From positions 79,575-143,574 of IMG/VR virus record IMGVR_UViG_3300049729_000211: a stretch of 64,000 nt of DNA; one strand, 5' to 3'. Positions 61 through 63,812 of the stretch are shown here, piece by piece (the first letter of the stretch is position 1; every line of letters begins with the position of its first letter). Both the position numbers and the translations under genes were made by a program. The notes under the pieces were generated by a model. That model saw nothing but the letters and a program-made list of their open reading frames with translations. It was not told the origin of the DNA and ran no database searches. Source of the stretch: a virus.

Positions 61-2302
61 CTTCGGTCTCCTCTTTCTCTTCGTCTAATGAAGACACCCT
101 GAAATTCTGGTTCCTGTTGCGATTCTTCTTCCAGTTGTTGAACTTGTCATCCCGCATCTTCTTCAACCTCTTGCGATCGCCTTCTGCTTGTTCTTCGAGC
201 TTGCGCTTTTCCTCCACAAGCATTTGGTCGATGAGGTCGTGATTCTGTGAATGGCTTTCCTCTTCGTCTTTAACATGCACTTCCTCTTTTCGAGGTTGTT
301 GCAACTTTTCTTTCTGTTCCGCCGGGGTGGGCTGTGCTTCAACTGCAGCAGGAGCAGTGCGCTCAATTTCACGCTCGGTCTGTTCGTCAAGCTCAGCTTC
401 TTCCTGCAGAAGACGATCACGCTCCTTGCGCTGCATCTCCTCAAGATCTTCTTTCTCCTTGGGAGTTCTGCGCTTCTTCTTGAGCAGCTGACGCTGGCGC
501 ATAGCCTCCTGCTCACGATCAAGACGAGTAGGAGCTTTGGTAGGAGTCTGCTTGTATTCCTCAACCACCTTCTCACGAACCAGGTTCTGAATATTGTGCT
601 GAACAGCCGGAAGGATGCGTTCACACACGGCCTTAATGTGTTTACAAATCAGAGCATTCGTTCTTAAATCGAGCCTTTCTTTGGGAGCTTGAAGTTTTGG
701 TCTGGGTTCTCCTTCTAAAGCATCACGTTCATGAAGGTTCCACTGATTTCCCCAGTACAGGAACGCCGGGCAATTATGTACCACCACTCCGTTAGCAATG
801 AACGATTCGTCTTCTTCTACTGTCAAATCAAAAAATGATGGAGGACAGGATACCTGCTTCGCATAATTAAGGCAACGAAGAAATCCTTCTCTCCATTCCA
901 AATCTCTAGATTCAGAAAACACTTTTCCCAGAGATTTTTCAACTCGTTCTTTATCTCTTTCACGTAGCCATTTGAACATTCGAAGAACTAGAGCAGGGTA
1001 CTGTCTGTAGCTAATTCGCAGTCTAGTGTTAGTAAAACTTTGCCAAACTCCTTGGCTAAAGAGGAAAAAAGAGATTTGTTGAAGAAGATTTCTAGAGTAA
1101 GAAACAATATCTTGAGTGTCGTACTCGATGTTTCCATCCCCTAGAGCATGACTAGAGATCAAATTCCACATTGCTTCCACATCCCAAGCGAGTATTTCCT
1201 CTGATAGTCTCTTGGTTAGACTACCTTGCCCACACAATTCATACATCTGCTTAGCGAACTGGGAATCTTTCACTCTGACATTTATCCAACTATACTCAGA
1301 GTTGTCCTCAATCTCGATTCGAGCATTAGGACCAAGGTAGCGACGTGCTCGTTCTGCTGTATCCTTGACTACAGTGTCTTTTTCGTTACGATTGTAGGTA
1401 AATGTTACTTCGTAGGCAGAGTACTGCTCTCCGTCAACCACCACCTGAGCTGCTTTAACTTTCTTGGTAGACCTTCTTTTATGTAAATGCAAGCAACCTT
1501 CAGCGAGGTAGTATCCTGTCAAAGCAGCAAGATCTGGATCAACTACCTTAGTTCCTGTCCACGCGAACTTAGGGAAGTACAGTGTCTCTCGGTCAACTAT
1601 TTCCAAGGGAGTTTTCCAAAAAGAAGAAATCTCTGGTTTAACCAACAGTCTAGTATTTCCTAGAGTGTTATGTCCGGATAAGAAATTTCTACCAAGTCTC
1701 TTTTTAACAACAGAAGAATACTTTCCTGAAGTGGGCCATAGGGGTGCTCCACATCCACAAGCACAATTTTCTCTTCCTCTGACTACAGCAATAGGATGAT
1801 CTTCAGACAAAATAAGCGGAGTCTGGTACCCTTTGGCTTTAACCTCCCAAGCCTGTTCTCCTTCTCTAGGTTTTCTTTCCGACACCGCTGTGACTTTCTT
1901 AGCTCTTCCCTTGTGAGTGATGACATGATCACCTACAGATACTTCATCTATTCTCTTCTCTGTTCCATCAGCCATCCTAATCATGCTGTCTAGAGCTACA
2001 CAGCTGCAGTTCACTTTGATATCCAGATCATTGGCTCTCATTTCCGGAGTAACCTTAGACACGTCAAAGTGAACTTTCACATCATGACCGTTAGGATCGC
2101 TAGTTTCAAGATTACATTTGACATTATAACGAAGGAAAAGGTCTTTGGGATCAGAAGCCTCAAGATGGGGAACGCAACCTGGTCTATTTTTCACAGAAAA
2201 ACTGTTTGTTTGGGACACTAATTCCGGCAAAGATATAGCCAGCTTCACCTTCTTGGTAAGGTAATCCGACAATTTGAAAGAAGACCAGATTTCGCTCATC
2301 AT
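47..2302 (-). CDS. SWIM zinc-finger protein carrying an intein
   Basis: The 751-residue precursor has an N-extein (residues 1-100), an intein (101-510) and a C-extein (511-751), so the spliced protein is about 341 residues. Joining the exteins creates a CxC (Cys99, Cys511) followed by C-x-H at Cys553/His555, the SWIM zinc-binding pattern; neither extein alone has the complete site. SWIM domains bind DNA or proteins; the role here is unknown. The C-terminal third is very rich in Lys, Arg, Glu and Asp (KERDRL, EEKRKLEEQ) and is probably coiled-coil or disordered. Two ATGs stand together at the start, with no good Shine-Dalgarno sequence. A divergent gene starts only 38 bases away across a palindrome. 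The downstream partial gene overlaps its end. Confidence 0.85.
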   Translation of the reverse strand: MMSEIWSSFKLSDYLTKKVKLAISLPELVSQTNSFSVKNRPGCVPHLEASDPKDLFLRYNVKCNLETSDPNGHDVKVHFDVSKVTPEMRANDLDIKVNCSCVALDSMIRMADGTEKRIDEVSVGDHVITHKGRAKKVTAVSERKPREGEQAWEVKAKGYQTPLILSEDHPIAVVRGRENCACGCGAPLWPTSGKYSSVVKKRLGRNFLSGHNTLGNTRLLVKPEISSFWKTPLEIVDRETLYFPKFAWTGTKVVDPDLAALTGYYLAEGCLHLHKRRSTKKVKAAQVVVDGEQYSAYEVTFTYNRNEKDTVVKDTAERARRYLGPNARIEIEDNSEYSWINVRVKDSQFAKQMYELCGQGSLTKRLSEEILAWDVEAMWNLISSHALGDGNIEYDTQDIVSYSRNLLQQISFFLFSQGVWQSFTNTRLRISYRQYPALVLRMFKWLRERDKERVEKSLGKVFSESRDLEWREGFLRCLNYAKQVSCPPSFFDLTVEEDESFIANGVVVHNCPAFLYWGNQWNLHERDALEGEPRPKLQAPKERLDLRTNALICKHIKAVCERILPAVQHNIQNLVREKVVEEYKQTPTKAPTRLDREQEAMRQRQLLKKKRRTPKEKEDLEEMQRKERDRLLQEEAELDEQTEREIERTAPAAVEAQPTPAEQKEKLQQPRKEEVHVKDEEESHSQNHDLIDQMLVEEKRKLEEQAEGDRKRLKKMRDDKFNNWKKNRNRNQNFRVSSLDEEKEETEDVTG
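773..2002 (-). mobile_element. Intein with LAGLIDADG (DOD) homing endonuclease
   Basis: This 410-residue intein runs from Cys101 to Asn510 of the host protein. The N-terminal block begins CVALDSMIRMADG. A block-B-like LSEDHPI lies at about 165-171, and the C-terminus is VVVHN followed by Cys511 as the +1 nucleophile. Two dodecapeptide motifs, LTGYYLAEG (261-269) and HALGDG (385-390), mark a LAGLIDADG endonuclease. Between the splicing block and the endonuclease there is a cysteine cluster CACGCG (180-185) followed by F..GH, a small presumed zinc site also seen in other mobile endonucleases. All residues expected for splicing are present, so it is probably active. The DNA is visibly more AT-rich than the extein part. 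Confidence 0.92.
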
Positions 2303-3737: not shown

Positions 3738-4421
3738 CTAGATGGGGACTTCTTCCCACGTGATGCGACCATAGACGCTGAAGGTGGTGGTGGAGATAGT
3801 GTTCAGCAGAGCCAATACACCACCTGGAGGAACGATAAGTCCACCATCAAAATTCTGCACTCCACCTATGAGTGGCGCTATGGAAGTGTTGGCGATGGTG
3901 CCGTAAGCCAGAGATCCGGGAGTCGGAATATCAGATGCCGCGAAAATAACGAGGTTGTTGGTGAGACCAGTGAGGGCCGTCGCTGGTGTAAAATACTTGG
4001 CCTGAGAACCAGAACCAGTGAGCGTCTTTACGTTTGTTGGTGTAGTACCAGTAGAAATACCACCATTGCTGGCTGATGCAGCCCAAACCAGAGCACCAGG
4101 AGGTGCTGGAGTAGTGGCAGTGTTATACATCATCTGCAACGATGCCTGCAGAAGTACCAAGTTTACGGTGTTGGACAAATTGTTCCACAACCCAAGAATC
4201 GGAGTTGCAGTGGCCGTCAACCCGATGGTGTTGGCAGACAAAGCTGTGACTGCGTTGATGCCACCTGTGAACACGTTGCCACGATAGGCCTGTTCATAGA
4301 ATCTGCCGTGCAACTCCGACATAATGACGTCGCCAAGGTTGCCTGAACGCATGGCCGCGACTGTGCCGGGAGCAATTGAAGCTGTGGTTGCAATTGGACC
4401 AACCTGAGTTTGAACCTGCAT
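3738..4421 (-). CDS. Probable surface-exposed virion protein
   Basis: This 227-residue protein is low in charge and rich in Thr, Ala and Gly, with the segment SELHGRFYEQAYRGNVFTGG near residues 34-53. I recall this type of segment from phage structural proteins of unknown role. AAGGAG stands 9 bases before the ATG. It is the last gene of the leftward virion operon and ends near the bidirectional hairpin. Possibly a decoration or fibre-associated protein; no domain is certain. Confidence 0.78.
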   Translation of the reverse strand: MQVQTQVGPIATTASIAPGTVAAMRSGNLGDVIMSELHGRFYEQAYRGNVFTGGINAVTALSANTIGLTATATPILGLWNNLSNTVNLVLLQASLQMMYNTATTPAPPGALVWAASASNGGISTGTTPTNVKTLTGSGSQAKYFTPATALTGLTNNLVIFAASDIPTPGSLAYGTIANTSIAPLIGGVQNFDGGLIVPPGGVLALLNTISTTTFSVYGRITWEEVPI

Positions 4422-25332: not shown

Positions 25333-25960
25333 AAGTGAAACCTTTGGGAAGATCTTGCAAGTCATACCGCAGGAGTTTGCTACCGGCGATGCATCTCACG
25401 ATTTCGTCAGGAGTCACAGGGCAGACCGGAGGATAGGGACTTTCCTTGAGAGTCTGAACCACCTGTCCCGGGATACGACCCACAGAGTACTCAGGACGCA
25501 TGATGAGCGGAGCATCCACGCAAACTTCGCGGCCTCTGATCATCTTTCCCTTCTCGTCGCGAACCTCAGGTGTGATTCCCCAGAGCAGATGACCCAGGGC
25601 ATGGTGCATCATCATGCCGGCATAGGTTCCTGCCAGACTCTTGATCCTCTTGCATCCACGCTTGATCGCTTCGGCCTCGACAACCTTGTAGAGTTCCGTG
25701 GCATATCCTTTGCGACGGATGGCGACCGGAGTGTAGGCTGTGTACCAGTTGGCATAGGGTTCCCAGATGTTCTTGCTCTTCTTGCCGAAATAGGTGACAT
25801 TCAGCGTGAGCAGGGCACCAGCCGGGTCACGGAGGATATAGAGGGGTGCCCCTCTGAAGACTCCCATATCAACTTCTGACAGGACTGAGGATTTCTCTCC
25901 GATATCCTTGACGATCCTTCTGGCTTCTTTGGGCTCAGTTACGATTTCAATCGTGTTCAC
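25319..25960 (-). CDS. GNAT-type N-acetyltransferase
   Basis: The 213-residue protein starts at a GTG overlapping the previous stop (GTGA). A longer frame start would lie inside the amidotransferase gene. The motif AIRRKGYATELYKVVEAEA (about 79-97) is the acetyl-CoA-binding loop and helix of GNAT enzymes. The C-terminal 90 residues have no recognised domain. The substrate is unknown; it may act on proteins or small molecules. An internal promoter-family match 78 bases upstream could give it separate expression. Confidence 0.75.
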   Translation of the reverse strand: MNTIEIVTEPKEARRIVKDIGEKSSVLSEVDMGVFRGAPLYILRDPAGALLTLNVTYFGKKSKNIWEPYANWYTAYTPVAIRRKGYATELYKVVEAEAIKRGCKRIKSLAGTYAGMMMHHALGHLLWGITPEVRDEKGKMIRGREVCVDAPLIMRPEYSVGRIPGQVVQTLKESPYPPVCPVTPDEIVRCIAGSKLLRYDLQDLPKGFTCSVN

Positions 25961-27834
25961 TTGGACACTCCAATCGGTGCGTTGGGTAGCAGTCCTCGAT
26001 TGATCATCGGCCACAAGCCGATCATTCGACCTTCATCTCTAAGGACGTGCTCCATGGATCGGGTAACTCTGACTCTTGGAGGATCTACCAACTCTCCAAG
26101 ATACTCATGAATGAGGTTTTCTTTCCTGAATTGCCATAGAACATTCCAGTCTATTCCGCTGGTGATATCCTGCTGATCTTGCATCTGCTGAATCTCGTCC
26201 GCCATTCGATCAAGGTAGTATGGCAGATAGCGACCTTTGGTGGTCCGGAAGTATCCCTTGTATGCACACAGACACGACTCCATGAACCAGTGATCCATGC
26301 CCAGCAGAGGGTACTCAACTTGGATCTCCTTGATCAGAATTTCGAGCTCTTTCTCGAGCCAAGCCCACTGCTCCTTGTTGAGTTTTTCGAAGGCCCAATC
26401 GGCTTTGCCCAGGACGATGCAGAGGCCAGCGCGTGGCGAGTCAGCTTCTTTAAGGAAGACTGTGTCAGCCTGGAGAGGCATTCCCATACAGCGAGCAAGG
26501 CACTCAGTGTAGATGTACACACTGTAACGACCGAAGCGCATGAATTGGTTCAGGGCCTTGGTCACGTTGTGGAAGTTCTCAATCTTGTTGGTGGAGGTGA
26601 GGTGCTTGGCGAAGAATTCCTCCTGGGCAGTCGAGGTCTGTTTGCCCATCTGCTTGACATAGTCCTCGAACATCTCCACGAAGTGACCCTTGAGATACTT
26701 CCGGTCCGTGTTGTACCTCAGCTTCTTCCAGTTCTCAGTATGCCAACGACGGAGCCGCCCGATGTCGATCTTCTCGAACTCAGGAAATTCCTGCATCACA
26801 TAGAAGACAGAGCCGGGGTGATAGAACACTCCATACAAGTAACAAATCCAGTACTCCTGACTCTTTGACATCTCCCACCGGCGGAAGACGTAGTTCAGCA
26901 GAGCATAGTTTGGATCTATCTCCCAGGAGGCCACGGAGGATACACAGTACCTTTTGAATGAGTCACGAAGAGCCTTGCGATGGTCTCCTCCGGTCCAAAT
27001 TGGGAGGTCAAGAATCACATGCTTGCTGTCAAAAGGGACCGAATGCTTGCTCATCATGACGTTCGCAATGGGAGGTCTCTCAAATCTCTTCTCAGGAGCA
27101 TAGTACGTTTTGTATCTCTGAGAACTGACGGACTTTCCTGTACCAGAGAAGGTGTATATGGTGTAAGGTTCACACTCCTGAACTGTACACTTGTGTCCCT
27201 CGAACTCGAAGGCTCTCATGATGATGTCCTGAGTGGAAGCGAATCCTTGCATGGACAATTCAGGACAGTCAAACATCCACAAAGGTCTCAAGTGGTCCCG
27301 CATCAGATAGATGGACCCCAGATAGTCTAGGAATCCACAAGCAAAGATAGGAGGAGCCACTTCATAAACTTTTCGAAAAGCCTCAGCAATGGTGCCTTTC
27401 AATGCATGACGTAAGAATATCTCGGAGTCATTGGCGGTCTCGGTGTCGATCTTGTAATCGGCTTCGAACTCTTCCTTGGTCGCCATAGACACCAGACCGT
27501 TATGGACGATCGCCAGCTGCGGAGTGCTGAGAGGCTGAGTGTTATTGTTGTCATGCCAGTCTCCACTGGTGGAGTACCGGCAATGTCCAATCATGGTCTT
27601 CGGAATCTTGCAAGACAGATCCGTCCAGCCAGCCGTTTCCAGCAGGGCCTCAGCACAAATTGGCGCCTTGAAGGTCTTGACCTCTCCCTGTTGCCAGGTT
27701 GGACCTTCCACCCAAGACACCCCAGACGCGTGCTTCCCACGAACCTGAGCCTCAATCATCAGCCGCTCAAATACCTTGAAGGCATCGTGTGCTCGGTCAG
27801 TATTGTACAGCTTGTACCCAACGATTCCGCACAT
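25957..27834 (-). CDS. Class II glutamine amidotransferase fused to a large C-terminal domain
   Basis: The 625-residue protein starts MCGIVGY: Cys2 would be the N-terminal nucleophile of a GATase-2 (Ntn hydrolase) domain. Supporting motifs are GKHASGVSW (33-41), GHCRYSTSG (83-91) and IVHNGLV (108-114). This domain frees ammonia from glutamine. The rest (about residues 290-500; RWEMSKSQEYWICYLYG, FMRFGRYSVYIYTECLARCMG) is a helical domain I do not firmly identify. It recalls alpha-helical domains described in phage thymidine hypermodification systems, but this is a guess. GNAT and Nudix genes lie close by. The start has no strong ribosome site. Confidence 0.8.
   Translation of the reverse strand: MCGIVGYKLYNTDRAHDAFKVFERLMIEAQVRGKHASGVSWVEGPTWQQGEVKTFKAPICAEALLETAGWTDLSCKIPKTMIGHCRYSTSGDWHDNNNTQPLSTPQLAIVHNGLVSMATKEEFEADYKIDTETANDSEIFLRHALKGTIAEAFRKVYEVAPPIFACGFLDYLGSIYLMRDHLRPLWMFDCPELSMQGFASTQDIIMRAFEFEGHKCTVQECEPYTIYTFSGTGKSVSSQRYKTYYAPEKRFERPPIANVMMSKHSVPFDSKHVILDLPIWTGGDHRKALRDSFKRYCVSSVASWEIDPNYALLNYVFRRWEMSKSQEYWICYLYGVFYHPGSVFYVMQEFPEFEKIDIGRLRRWHTENWKKLRYNTDRKYLKGHFVEMFEDYVKQMGKQTSTAQEEFFAKHLTSTNKIENFHNVTKALNQFMRFGRYSVYIYTECLARCMGMPLQADTVFLKEADSPRAGLCIVLGKADWAFEKLNKEQWAWLEKELEILIKEIQVEYPLLGMDHWFMESCLCAYKGYFRTTKGRYLPYYLDRMADEIQQMQDQQDITSGIDWNVLWQFRKENLIHEYLGELVDPPRVRVTRSMEHVLRDEGRMIGLWPMINRGLLPNAPIGVSK
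26038..26067 (-). promoter_or_regulatory. Internal match to the phage promoter family
   Basis: Inside the amidotransferase gene, the minus strand reads GTTACCCG, 18 bases, TAGAGA. It would give a transcript starting about 70 bases before the acetyltransferase gene. It is a full match by sequence and spacing, but lies in coding DNA. Confidence 0.5.
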
Positions 27835-62495: not shown

Positions 62496-62520
62496 AAAAG
62501 AAAAGGCCTCCGAAGAGGCC
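62496..62520 (-). terminator. Terminator of the tmRNA gene
   Basis: On the minus strand GGCCTC-TTCG-GAGGCC followed by TTTTCTTTT: a stable UUCG-tetraloop hairpin with a T-run, directly after the tmRNA. Confidence 0.92.
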
Positions 62521-62933
62521 CTCTCTTTGCCACGTGATCCCGGTTTATCCAGGACCTTCTGTTGCTAGGATCGTAACCGACCCCCGACAGCGATTAAGCT
62601 GCCATTGCCAGCGGAGCGAACGAACGGACCGGGAAGGCCAGGACGTTGCTACGACGGGCGCTGATACCATTGTCGGTAGCAGTTATTGTTTCTGTGTCCG
62701 ATTACGGAGGGCCACAGCGTACCGAGTTGTTATCTCTGGTCAGTTCCAATTGTCGAATCTGTTCGCCCCCATCATAAGCACTCTGGTTCCCAACTTCTGA
62801 ACAGTCTCTTCTCCAGCGACCGTATGAAATTCTAGGCGAAGTGGAGAGTGCTTATGGTGGAGGCGCGGGTCTATGCTAACCCGGTCCAAATGGCACATCA
62901 CTTTGACTTCAGCTCCGAAGAGCATACAACCAT
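62521..62933 (-). ncRNA. ssrA: Circularly permuted (two-piece) tmRNA
   Basis: Reading the minus strand: an acceptor piece comes first and ends CGCCTCC-A-CCA (62865-62855), preceded by a T-arm-like stem CGGGT/ACCCG with an unusual 8-base loop. A ~70-base intervening part is closed by an 11-bp perfect helix (62855-62845 with 62784-62774). Then the coding piece starts GGGGGCG (62770-62764), which pairs fully with CGCCTCC (one G-U), followed by the tmRNA signature ATTCGAC. CAATTGG and CCATTTG of the two pieces could form helix P2. The resume region AACAATAACT-GCT opens a 28-codon tag whose TAA sits in a hairpin loop, as in other tmRNAs. It should rescue stalled ribosomes with SmpB. Exact mature ends are estimated; the pseudoknots were not solved. 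Confidence 0.85.
62594..62680 (-). other. tmRNA proteolysis-tag reading frame (28 codons)
   Basis: From the resume GCT, the frame encodes ATDNGISARRSNV... ending VRSFAPLAMAA, then TAA. The hydrophobic -AMAA end fits tags recognised by ClpXP-type proteases, and the NV.AF..R style resembles cyanobacterial tags. At 28 residues it is longer than most. The stop codon lies in the loop of GGCAGC/GCTGTC. Confidence 0.8.
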
Positions 62934-62941
62934 ATAGATAG

Positions 62942-62970
62942 TCTACTGGCTATATTTGAATTCCAGGTAC
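62942..62970 (-). promoter_or_regulatory. Promoter of the tmRNA gene (TACCTG-N18-TAGA)
   Basis: On the minus strand GTACCTG, 18 bases, TAGACT, one base from the consensus, just upstream of the acceptor piece. Its presence ties the tmRNA to the phage's own promoter class. Confidence 0.75.
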
Positions 62971-63001: not shown

Positions 63002-63760
63002 TTGAACAAGCGTCTGGTATACACGGTCTATAAAACCGTGAACAAAGCAAACGGTAAGTTCTACCTTGGAGTTCATAAGACTTCAAATCCGATGGATGAG
63101 TACTTAGGTTCTGGTACTTACATCAAGCGAGCCGTTGCAAAGTATGGTCAATCTGGTTTCACGAAAGAAATCCTCTTTGAGTACGAAACTCAAGAAGAAG
63201 GATGGGACAAGGAGGATGAACTCATTGAGTTGAATCGGAATAATCCTCTTTGTACAAACATACGGAAAGGAGGTTCTGGAGGATTTGATTATATCAACAA
63301 AAATGGATTACTGACTATGTCAGACGAGACTAAATCTAGGTGTACTGCTAAGCTGTTAAACTGGAGGAAAGAACATCCTAATGAAATCAAAGAGAATGCT
63401 CGAATAGCTAATCTAACTAGAAGCAAGCAGTGGAAGGGAGGTAAGCATACAACTGAAGTTTGTCATAGAATCTCAGAAGTGAGTAGTGGACCACACAATA
63501 ACATGCATGACAAGAAATGGGTACATCATCCTGAATTGGGATTTAAGGCCGTTCTTCTAGATGAAGTACAATCGTATCTAGATGCTGGATGGCTACTTGG
63601 AAGAATTAGATATCGCAAGACTACTCATTCAACTTATGGTAAGATTTGGATAAATAATGGAGAAAGAAACAAATTGGTGTCTAATCTAGAAGAGTTTCCA
63701 GGATGGAAACGTGGAAGATTGATGACTATGATACAACGCAGTTTTGCTTCCATCTCTTGA
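63002..63760 (+). CDS. GIY-YIG homing endonuclease, TTG start
   Basis: The 252-residue protein starts at a TTG after AGAGGTGG. It has VYTVYKTVNKANGKFYLGVHKT (6-27), the GIY-YIG core, and IRKGGSGGFDYIN near 88-100. Closely related to the enzyme at 38431-39348, but without the C-terminal zinc and HTH modules. It lies divergently next to the tmRNA promoter, as its paralogue lies next to a tRNA. Confidence 0.92.
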   Translation: MNKRLVYTVYKTVNKANGKFYLGVHKTSNPMDEYLGSGTYIKRAVAKYGQSGFTKEILFEYETQEEGWDKEDELIELNRNNPLCTNIRKGGSGGFDYINKNGLLTMSDETKSRCTAKLLNWRKEHPNEIKENARIANLTRSKQWKGGKHTTEVCHRISEVSSGPHNNMHDKKWVHHPELGFKAVLLDEVQSYLDAGWLLGRIRYRKTTHSTYGKIWINNGERNKLVSNLEEFPGWKRGRLMTMIQRSFASIS

Positions 63761-63812
63761 AGATTGTGTCCACGCGAAACCCGAAGGTCAGAACTTGTGT
63801 CCACCACCAGCG

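Follow-up and report, generated by a model that had tools for sequence, protein, structure and literature searches.

Does the stretch at 62963-62496 on the minus strand of this viral DNA encode a tmRNA in the permuted, two-piece form, and how is such a gene to be understood in a phage family whose one isolate infects bacteria that make one-piece tmRNA? The DNA analysed (the window) is a stretch of 64,000 nucleotides, positions 79575-143574 of a 143,574-bp IMG/VR record (IMGVR_UViG_3300049729_000211). An initial annotation, made from the letters alone, had proposed a two-piece tmRNA on the minus strand. When the window was searched with cmscan, the Rfam model RF04321 (tmRNA_permuted) matched at 62914-62594 with 64.8 bits (gathering 47, E 3.1e-10) and RF01849 (alpha_tmRNA) matched at 62963-62547 with 61.6 bits (gathering 50, E 1.7e-14). 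The check proposed with that annotation, Infernal with the Rfam permuted models, was therefore positive with these two models, and the parts of the gene were in place. The standard tmRNA model RF00023 gave no match in the window, and neither did any riboswitch model. The parts of the gene, with the basis for each, are as follows.

62496-62963, minus strand: permuted tmRNA (ssrA) gene, precursor from the acceptor piece to the terminator (RF04321 and RF01849 matches)
62855-62963, minus strand: acceptor piece, 5' end uncertain, with CCA at 62857-62855 (model alignment and sequence)
62866-62883, minus strand: T-arm, stem CGGGT/ACCCG with an 8-nt non-canonical loop, TAGCATAG (sequence)
62859-62865, minus strand: 3' strand of the acceptor stem, CGCCTCC, pairing with 62770-62764 (sequence, model alignment and fold)
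62771-62854, minus strand: intervening segment, 84 nt, presumably removed in maturation (fold z -5.1; 80/83 identical in a sister phage)
62764-62770, minus strand: 5' strand of the acceptor stem, GGGGGCG, the start of the coding piece (sequence and model alignment)
62536-62770, minus strand: coding piece, 3' end approximate (model alignment)
62594-62680, minus strand: tag reading frame, resume codon GCT, 28 codons ATDNGISARRSNVLAFPVRSFAPLAMAA, stop TAA (sequence)
about 62496-62525, minus strand: terminator-like hairpin GGGCCTC-TTCG-GAGGCC followed by a T-rich tail (fold; 100% conserved in the sister phage)

The acceptor piece (T-arm, acceptor strand and CCA) lies upstream of the coding piece, with the intervening segment between them. 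Most of the anatomy first read from the letters was borne out. The acceptor piece ends in CGCCTCC (62865-62859), a discriminator A (62858) and CCA, the coding piece opens with GGGGGCG and contains ATTCGAC, and the two strands form an acceptor stem in which 7/7 positions pair, including a G3:U70 wobble (62768/62861), the alanine identity pair. The acceptor-to-coding hairpin that holds this stem folds at -59.3 kcal/mol (z = -5.1), with 0/200 shuffles as low. The tag frame runs open from GCT at 62680-62678 to TAA at 62596-62594 and ends in LAMAA, all small or hydrophobic residues, and the UUCG-loop terminator is present. The perfect helix reported to close the intervening loop also exists, but it is 12 bp long, CATAAGCACTCT (62856-62845) with AGAGTGCTTATG (62784-62773), and not 11 bp. 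The T-loop is, as had been noticed, of 8 bases; it is neither canonical nor the 7-base alphaproteobacterial loop, and relatives carry the canonical TTCGANT loop. A viral permuted-tmRNA candidate in another record (L200, near 3750-3802, minus strand), found by pattern match only, also has an 8-base non-canonical T-loop, TATCGTAT. The P2 helix of the window copy comprises 6 bp around one U:U mismatch in the model alignment and a possible further 4 bp. Promoter consensus matches for the tmRNA gene were not commoner in the window than in shuffles.

Shared structural and replication proteins assign the window to a family of jumbo phages resembling Tunturiibacter phage Tunturi_5 (PP885688.1, 308,711 bp), which infects Tunturiibacter psychrotolerans and comes from Finnish tundra soil. 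Over most of their length, the window proteins were 40.7% (baseplate wedge), 40.8% (tail fibre) and 52.0% (helicase) identical to those of Tunturi_5. A blastn search for direct DNA relatives among named phages found none, and a search by the exact intervening segment or terminator of the window returned only two contigs, both already known. Tunturi_5 itself carries a predicted permuted tmRNA at 157899-158195 of PP885688.1 (L010 1501-1797, minus strand; 86.4 bits), where no feature is annotated, and the paper describing the phage makes no mention of tmRNA (PMC11924767). This gene is like the window copy in phage family, gene form and long tag style (tag AKNSPVVRGTAKVLSFARKFVPAVSSTRAFAMAA); unlike the window copy, it has a canonical T-loop, a 36-nt intervening segment and another genome neighbourhood.

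Permuted tmRNA matches were also found in at least four further lineages of the family, with scores of 103.1 bits in L156 and 78.8 bits in L157 and L158, the latter in a 455,708-bp contig. Apart from Tunturi_5, 3/13 records that share the baseplate protein carry a permuted tmRNA, and most of the others are short fragments. Two records, L246 and L208 (332,300 bp), were found by tmRNA pattern alone and then placed in the family by a baseplate match; ARAGORN calls both, and L208 scores 69.6 bits with RF04321. On these matches, which come from metagenomic assemblies in every case except Tunturi_5, the predicted permuted tmRNA is a recurring feature of the Tunturi_5-like family. Other features of these genomes were observed alongside. 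At 7297-7583 of L208, ARAGORN makes two calls with anticodon CUA, possible amber-reading tRNAs. The window encodes, on the minus strand, a protein of 519 aa in which a PARP catalytic domain was recognised, unusual for a phage (31441-33000; PF00644, E 6.4e-23), and a protein that joins an amino acid:DNA transferase domain (25957-27834; PF18724, E 3.5e-20) to a glutamine amidotransferase domain, which suggests that the phage DNA may be hypermodified.

The host group presents a mismatch: the one isolate of the family infects Acidobacteriota, which make one-piece tmRNA, yet the phages carry the two-piece form. Judged by family membership alone, the phage of the window presumably also infects Acidobacteriota. 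Five Terriglobia genomes, including one of the host genus, Edaphobacter (Tunturiibacter) lichenicola M8UP30, matched the standard ssrA model at 164-198 bits, and in none of them did a permuted model pass its cut-off. Among 396 sampled Acidobacteriota, 13 passed the RF04321 cut-off; the ten that were inspected were all standard ssrA genes, lying beside a tRNA except in L161, where the neighbour is a second, truncated ssrA copy. A permuted ssrA was thus confirmed in 0/396 genomes, with 10 of the 13 over-cut-off matches inspected, and its presence in Acidobacteriota was rejected as 10/10 inspected matches were standard genes. The false matches over threshold (L159-L168) arise where a tRNA lies directly upstream of a standard ssrA, and they call for caution in automated permuted-tmRNA calling. 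In L161, tandem standard copies occupy 1264-1617 and 1696-2028 (minus strand), the upstream copy ends before its acceptor end, and the junction of the two resembles a permuted gene and misleads RF04321.

The same cause could in principle have produced the match in the phage, with RF04321 bridging a tRNA or second ssrA copy and a standard ssrA downstream. We consider this exceedingly improbable, and at the level of sequence it is refuted: no tRNA gene was found near 62.5-63 kb by cmscan or ARAGORN, the window lacks a match to the standard model, no second acceptor end follows the tag on its 3' side, and the halves of the acceptor stem pair across the intervening segment. The two covariance models, the anatomy and the homologues in related phages confirm the sequence-based assignment of 62963-62496 as a phage-borne gene for a permuted tmRNA.

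Such a gene is not new in itself. The initial annotation knew of no described permuted tmRNA in a phage, but two-piece phage tmRNAs were published in 2022, in a paper on phage Melnitz that counted 53 two-piece genes across about 18,000 phage genomes; aquatic samples supplied 50 of the 53 (PMC9004378). A 2025 tmRNA database, the source of the RF04321 model, holds 79 phage sequences of all forms (PMC11915505). Our pattern scan of IMG/VR returned at least 120 stretches; of 20 loci checked, 18 contained a permuted tmRNA that passed the threshold, and most of these were of betaproteobacterial type. The tmRNA genes of Bxz1-group mycobacteriophages are one-piece. Those tmRNAs are phage-encoded (PMC4131195), as is that of the window. 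The window resembles Melnitz and the aquatic phages in having a phage-encoded permuted tmRNA and no obvious temperate lifestyle (PMC9004378), whereas phages of the Melnitz type are mostly marine or aquatic (50/53) and belong with known permuted lineages, and the window belongs to a soil-type jumbo family with a one-piece host group. What is new is the setting: a family with an Acidobacteriota-infecting isolate, a host group with one-piece tmRNA, and mature parts that differ around the same spacer. The host mismatch, the conservation across the family, the neighbouring homing endonuclease and the exchange of mature parts around a conserved intervening segment could not be seen by the reader of the letters alone.

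Most probably, the window tmRNA would serve to rescue and tag on stalled ribosomes in infected cells, with the SmpB of the host. Searches for an SmpB gene in the window's record (a 143,574-bp fragment), in Tunturi_5 and in the relatives searched found none, so that no self-contained system with its own tmRNA and its own SmpB was seen in these sequences, and host SmpB would therefore be needed for trans-translation. The gene smpB is present in 45/46 surveyed Acidobacteriota (PMC11633108). We infer transcription, processing, charging, tagging and a benefit to the phage along the following lines. One precursor would be transcribed from the gene, and host tRNA-processing enzymes would excise the intervening segment; the 7-bp acceptor stem and the short P2 helix would then join the acceptor piece to the coding piece. 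The host alanyl-tRNA synthetase would charge the molecule via G3:U70, and host SmpB and EF-Tu would load it onto ribosomes stalled in infection. There it would add Ala and ATDNGISARRSNVLAFPVRSFAPLAMAA, and the ribosome would be freed.

The tag peptide bears on whether such a molecule is functional. The core VLAFP...LAMAA is common to the window and L246 (11/2000 shuffles as high), and the two phages encode the same residues with different, synonymous codons, evidence in favour of its being translated. Met-Ala-Ala stands at or near the tag end in six family members (LAMAA, FAMAA, LAMAA, LPMAA, AMAAHA and AMAMAAAA). The Acidobacteriota tags that were read end in ALAA; the L156 tag, AEPYALPMAA, resembles AEPQFALAA of Tunturiibacter and Granulicella.

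Several features of the window copy could instead indicate a decaying or decoy tmRNA, recognisable and perhaps transcribed, which no longer rescues ribosomes and could titrate host SmpB. The T-loop has 8 bases, P2 is weak, and the branch of the acceptor piece is very long (3.86). Outside the acceptor stem, 213/300 shuffles gave a piece-to-piece duplex energy as low as that of the window, against 52/300 for L156, 65/300 for L158 and 27/300 for Tunturi_5, whose duplexes are better than the window's, but modestly so. ARAGORN, which the initial annotation had also proposed as a check, did not call the window copy. It calls the permuted tmRNAs of L156, L158, L246 and L208 and two alphaproteobacterial controls, and its silence on the window therefore reflects the window copy itself; the Tunturi_5 gene was likewise missed. 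Titration of host SmpB was proposed for the tmRNA of mycobacteriophage DS6A, which lacks a CDS, and inhibition by a form with only the tRNA domain has precedent (PMC4131195, PMC11915505). Against decay or decoy, the 28-codon frame is intact and its core is kept with L246 through synonymous changes, which would be unexpected of a decoy or a wreck. Further, the acceptor stem with its G3:U70 pair is intact, as are the CCA and the terminator, and the nearly identical contig L170 (99.9%) also has the window copy. On balance we regard loss of ribosome rescue as unlikely, and a rescuing tmRNA remains the preferred reading.

A sister phage, L169 (IMGVR_UViG_3300014168_000013), is 95-99% identical to the window around the tmRNA locus and allowed the gene to be compared part by part; this comparison and those with host ssrA and on origin were picked after viewing the data, and their scores are descriptive. 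The acceptor strand and CCA were identical (11/11), as were the terminator and flank (123/123); the intervening segment was identical at 80/83 positions, and the next gene at 98.7%. In contrast, the acceptor-piece body agreed at 57.5% (shuffled mean 52.4, maximum 61.2) and the coding piece at 47.7% (shuffled mean 45.6, maximum 48.9), both within the shuffled range. Since near-identical flanks and spacer go with mature parts no more alike than shuffled sequence, point mutation does not account for the difference, and the simplest reading of the alignment is that the mature tmRNA parts were replaced. The acceptor-stem sequence is common to Terriglobia and alphaproteobacterial tmRNAs, which would put the exchange boundary inside the stem or at its edge, close to where the RNA would be matured. 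A second contig, L170, has the arrangement of the window. Upstream of the acceptor piece the window differs from the sister phage by an insertion.

63002-63760, plus strand: homing-endonuclease-like gene of GIY-YIG type (252 aa), oriented divergently to the tmRNA gene and missing in L169 (phrog_314, E 9.4e-32)
63764-63806, minus strand: end of the leader, which abuts the acceptor piece in L169 and is here separated from it by the endonuclease gene (43/43 identical to L169 4351-4393)

The GIY-YIG assignment was made from the motif read in the translation. The leader ends at 63764, and the endonuclease gene separates it from the acceptor piece. L169 is without this gene; the leader block of L170 matches that of L169 over 989 bp at 99.1%. 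We hypothesize that the endonuclease at 63002-63760 may have caused the replacement of the mature parts. More GIY-YIG-like ORFs lie upstream of the tmRNA locus at different positions, at 2688-3260 in L169 and at 3729-4388 in L170.

The source of the mature parts was sought in bacterial tmRNAs. The window shares with alpha_tmRNA RF01849 (Caulobacter-type) the gene order, the acceptor stem, a 3' region with GCAACAGAA and a non-canonical T-loop. It is unlike that model in its 8-base rather than 7-base T-loop, its reduced P2 and its 28-codon tag ending LAMAA, and its 61.6 bits are far under the RF01849 scores of 37 bacterial alpha tmRNAs (143-313 bits). In maximum-likelihood trees the window stood beside alphaproteobacterial tmRNAs (99/91; coding piece alone 97/84), with long branches and with the other family members unresolved; AU tests (p 0.16-0.62) rejected none of the alternatives tried, and the trees rest on about 150 columns, a length at which shuffle and AU tests are weak. 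The coding pieces of the window, L156 and L158 were most similar to Terriglobia standard ssrA. The window gave z 11.5 with Terriglobia against 9.0 with the best alphaproteobacterium, and L156 gave 15.3 with Terriglobia against 6.2 and 4.1 (E. coli and the standard-model consensus). The Tunturi_5 coding piece was most similar to its relative L246 and then to Terriglobia, and the acceptor piece did not discriminate between origins.

The RF01849 match and the tree grouping would be expected if the phage infected Alphaproteobacteria and had recently taken the gene up from such a host, a reading to which we give little credence. Across 385 alphaproteobacterial genomes, a search at the DNA level turned up a single match, 25 bases long, and on this result recent acquisition was rejected. 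The sole isolate of the family infects Acidobacteriota, the coding piece is most similar to Terriglobia ssrA, and the branches behind the grouping are long, with none of the alternatives rejected. An Acidobacteriota origin for all tmRNAs of the family is not claimed either: the z scores favour Terriglobia, but the trees and AU tests do not decide the matter. The mature parts of the sister phage resemble Terriglobia ssrA, with the 5' sequence GGGGGCGTCACGGTTTCGAC and the tag AEPYALPMAA against AEPQFALAA in the host, which suggests that this phage may have exchanged its mature parts with the host's own one-piece gene.

Taken together, the explanation that we consider probable is a phage-encoded permuted tmRNA that would depend on the host for ribosome rescue, that is a standing feature of the family, and whose mature parts were replaced at a locus invaded by an endonuclease. 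Current phage annotation overlooks permuted tmRNA genes. A two-piece RNA brought into bacteria with a one-piece tmRNA lets one ask, in a natural setting, whether the form of the gene matters to SmpB and the processing enzymes, and with Tunturi_5 and its host in culture the question is directly testable. The near-identical phages with the same spacer and different mature parts record a recent, readable replacement of tmRNA sequence, and the pair bears on the origin and spread of permuted tmRNA genes. We propose, tentatively and with some doubt, that at the permuted ssrA locus of the family the leader, the intervening segment and the terminator may form a fixed frame, within which one mature tmRNA sequence is exchanged for another. 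If this is true, the phage would be a place where one-piece tmRNA sequence becomes two-piece, a conversion possibly aided by the homing endonucleases that attack the locus.
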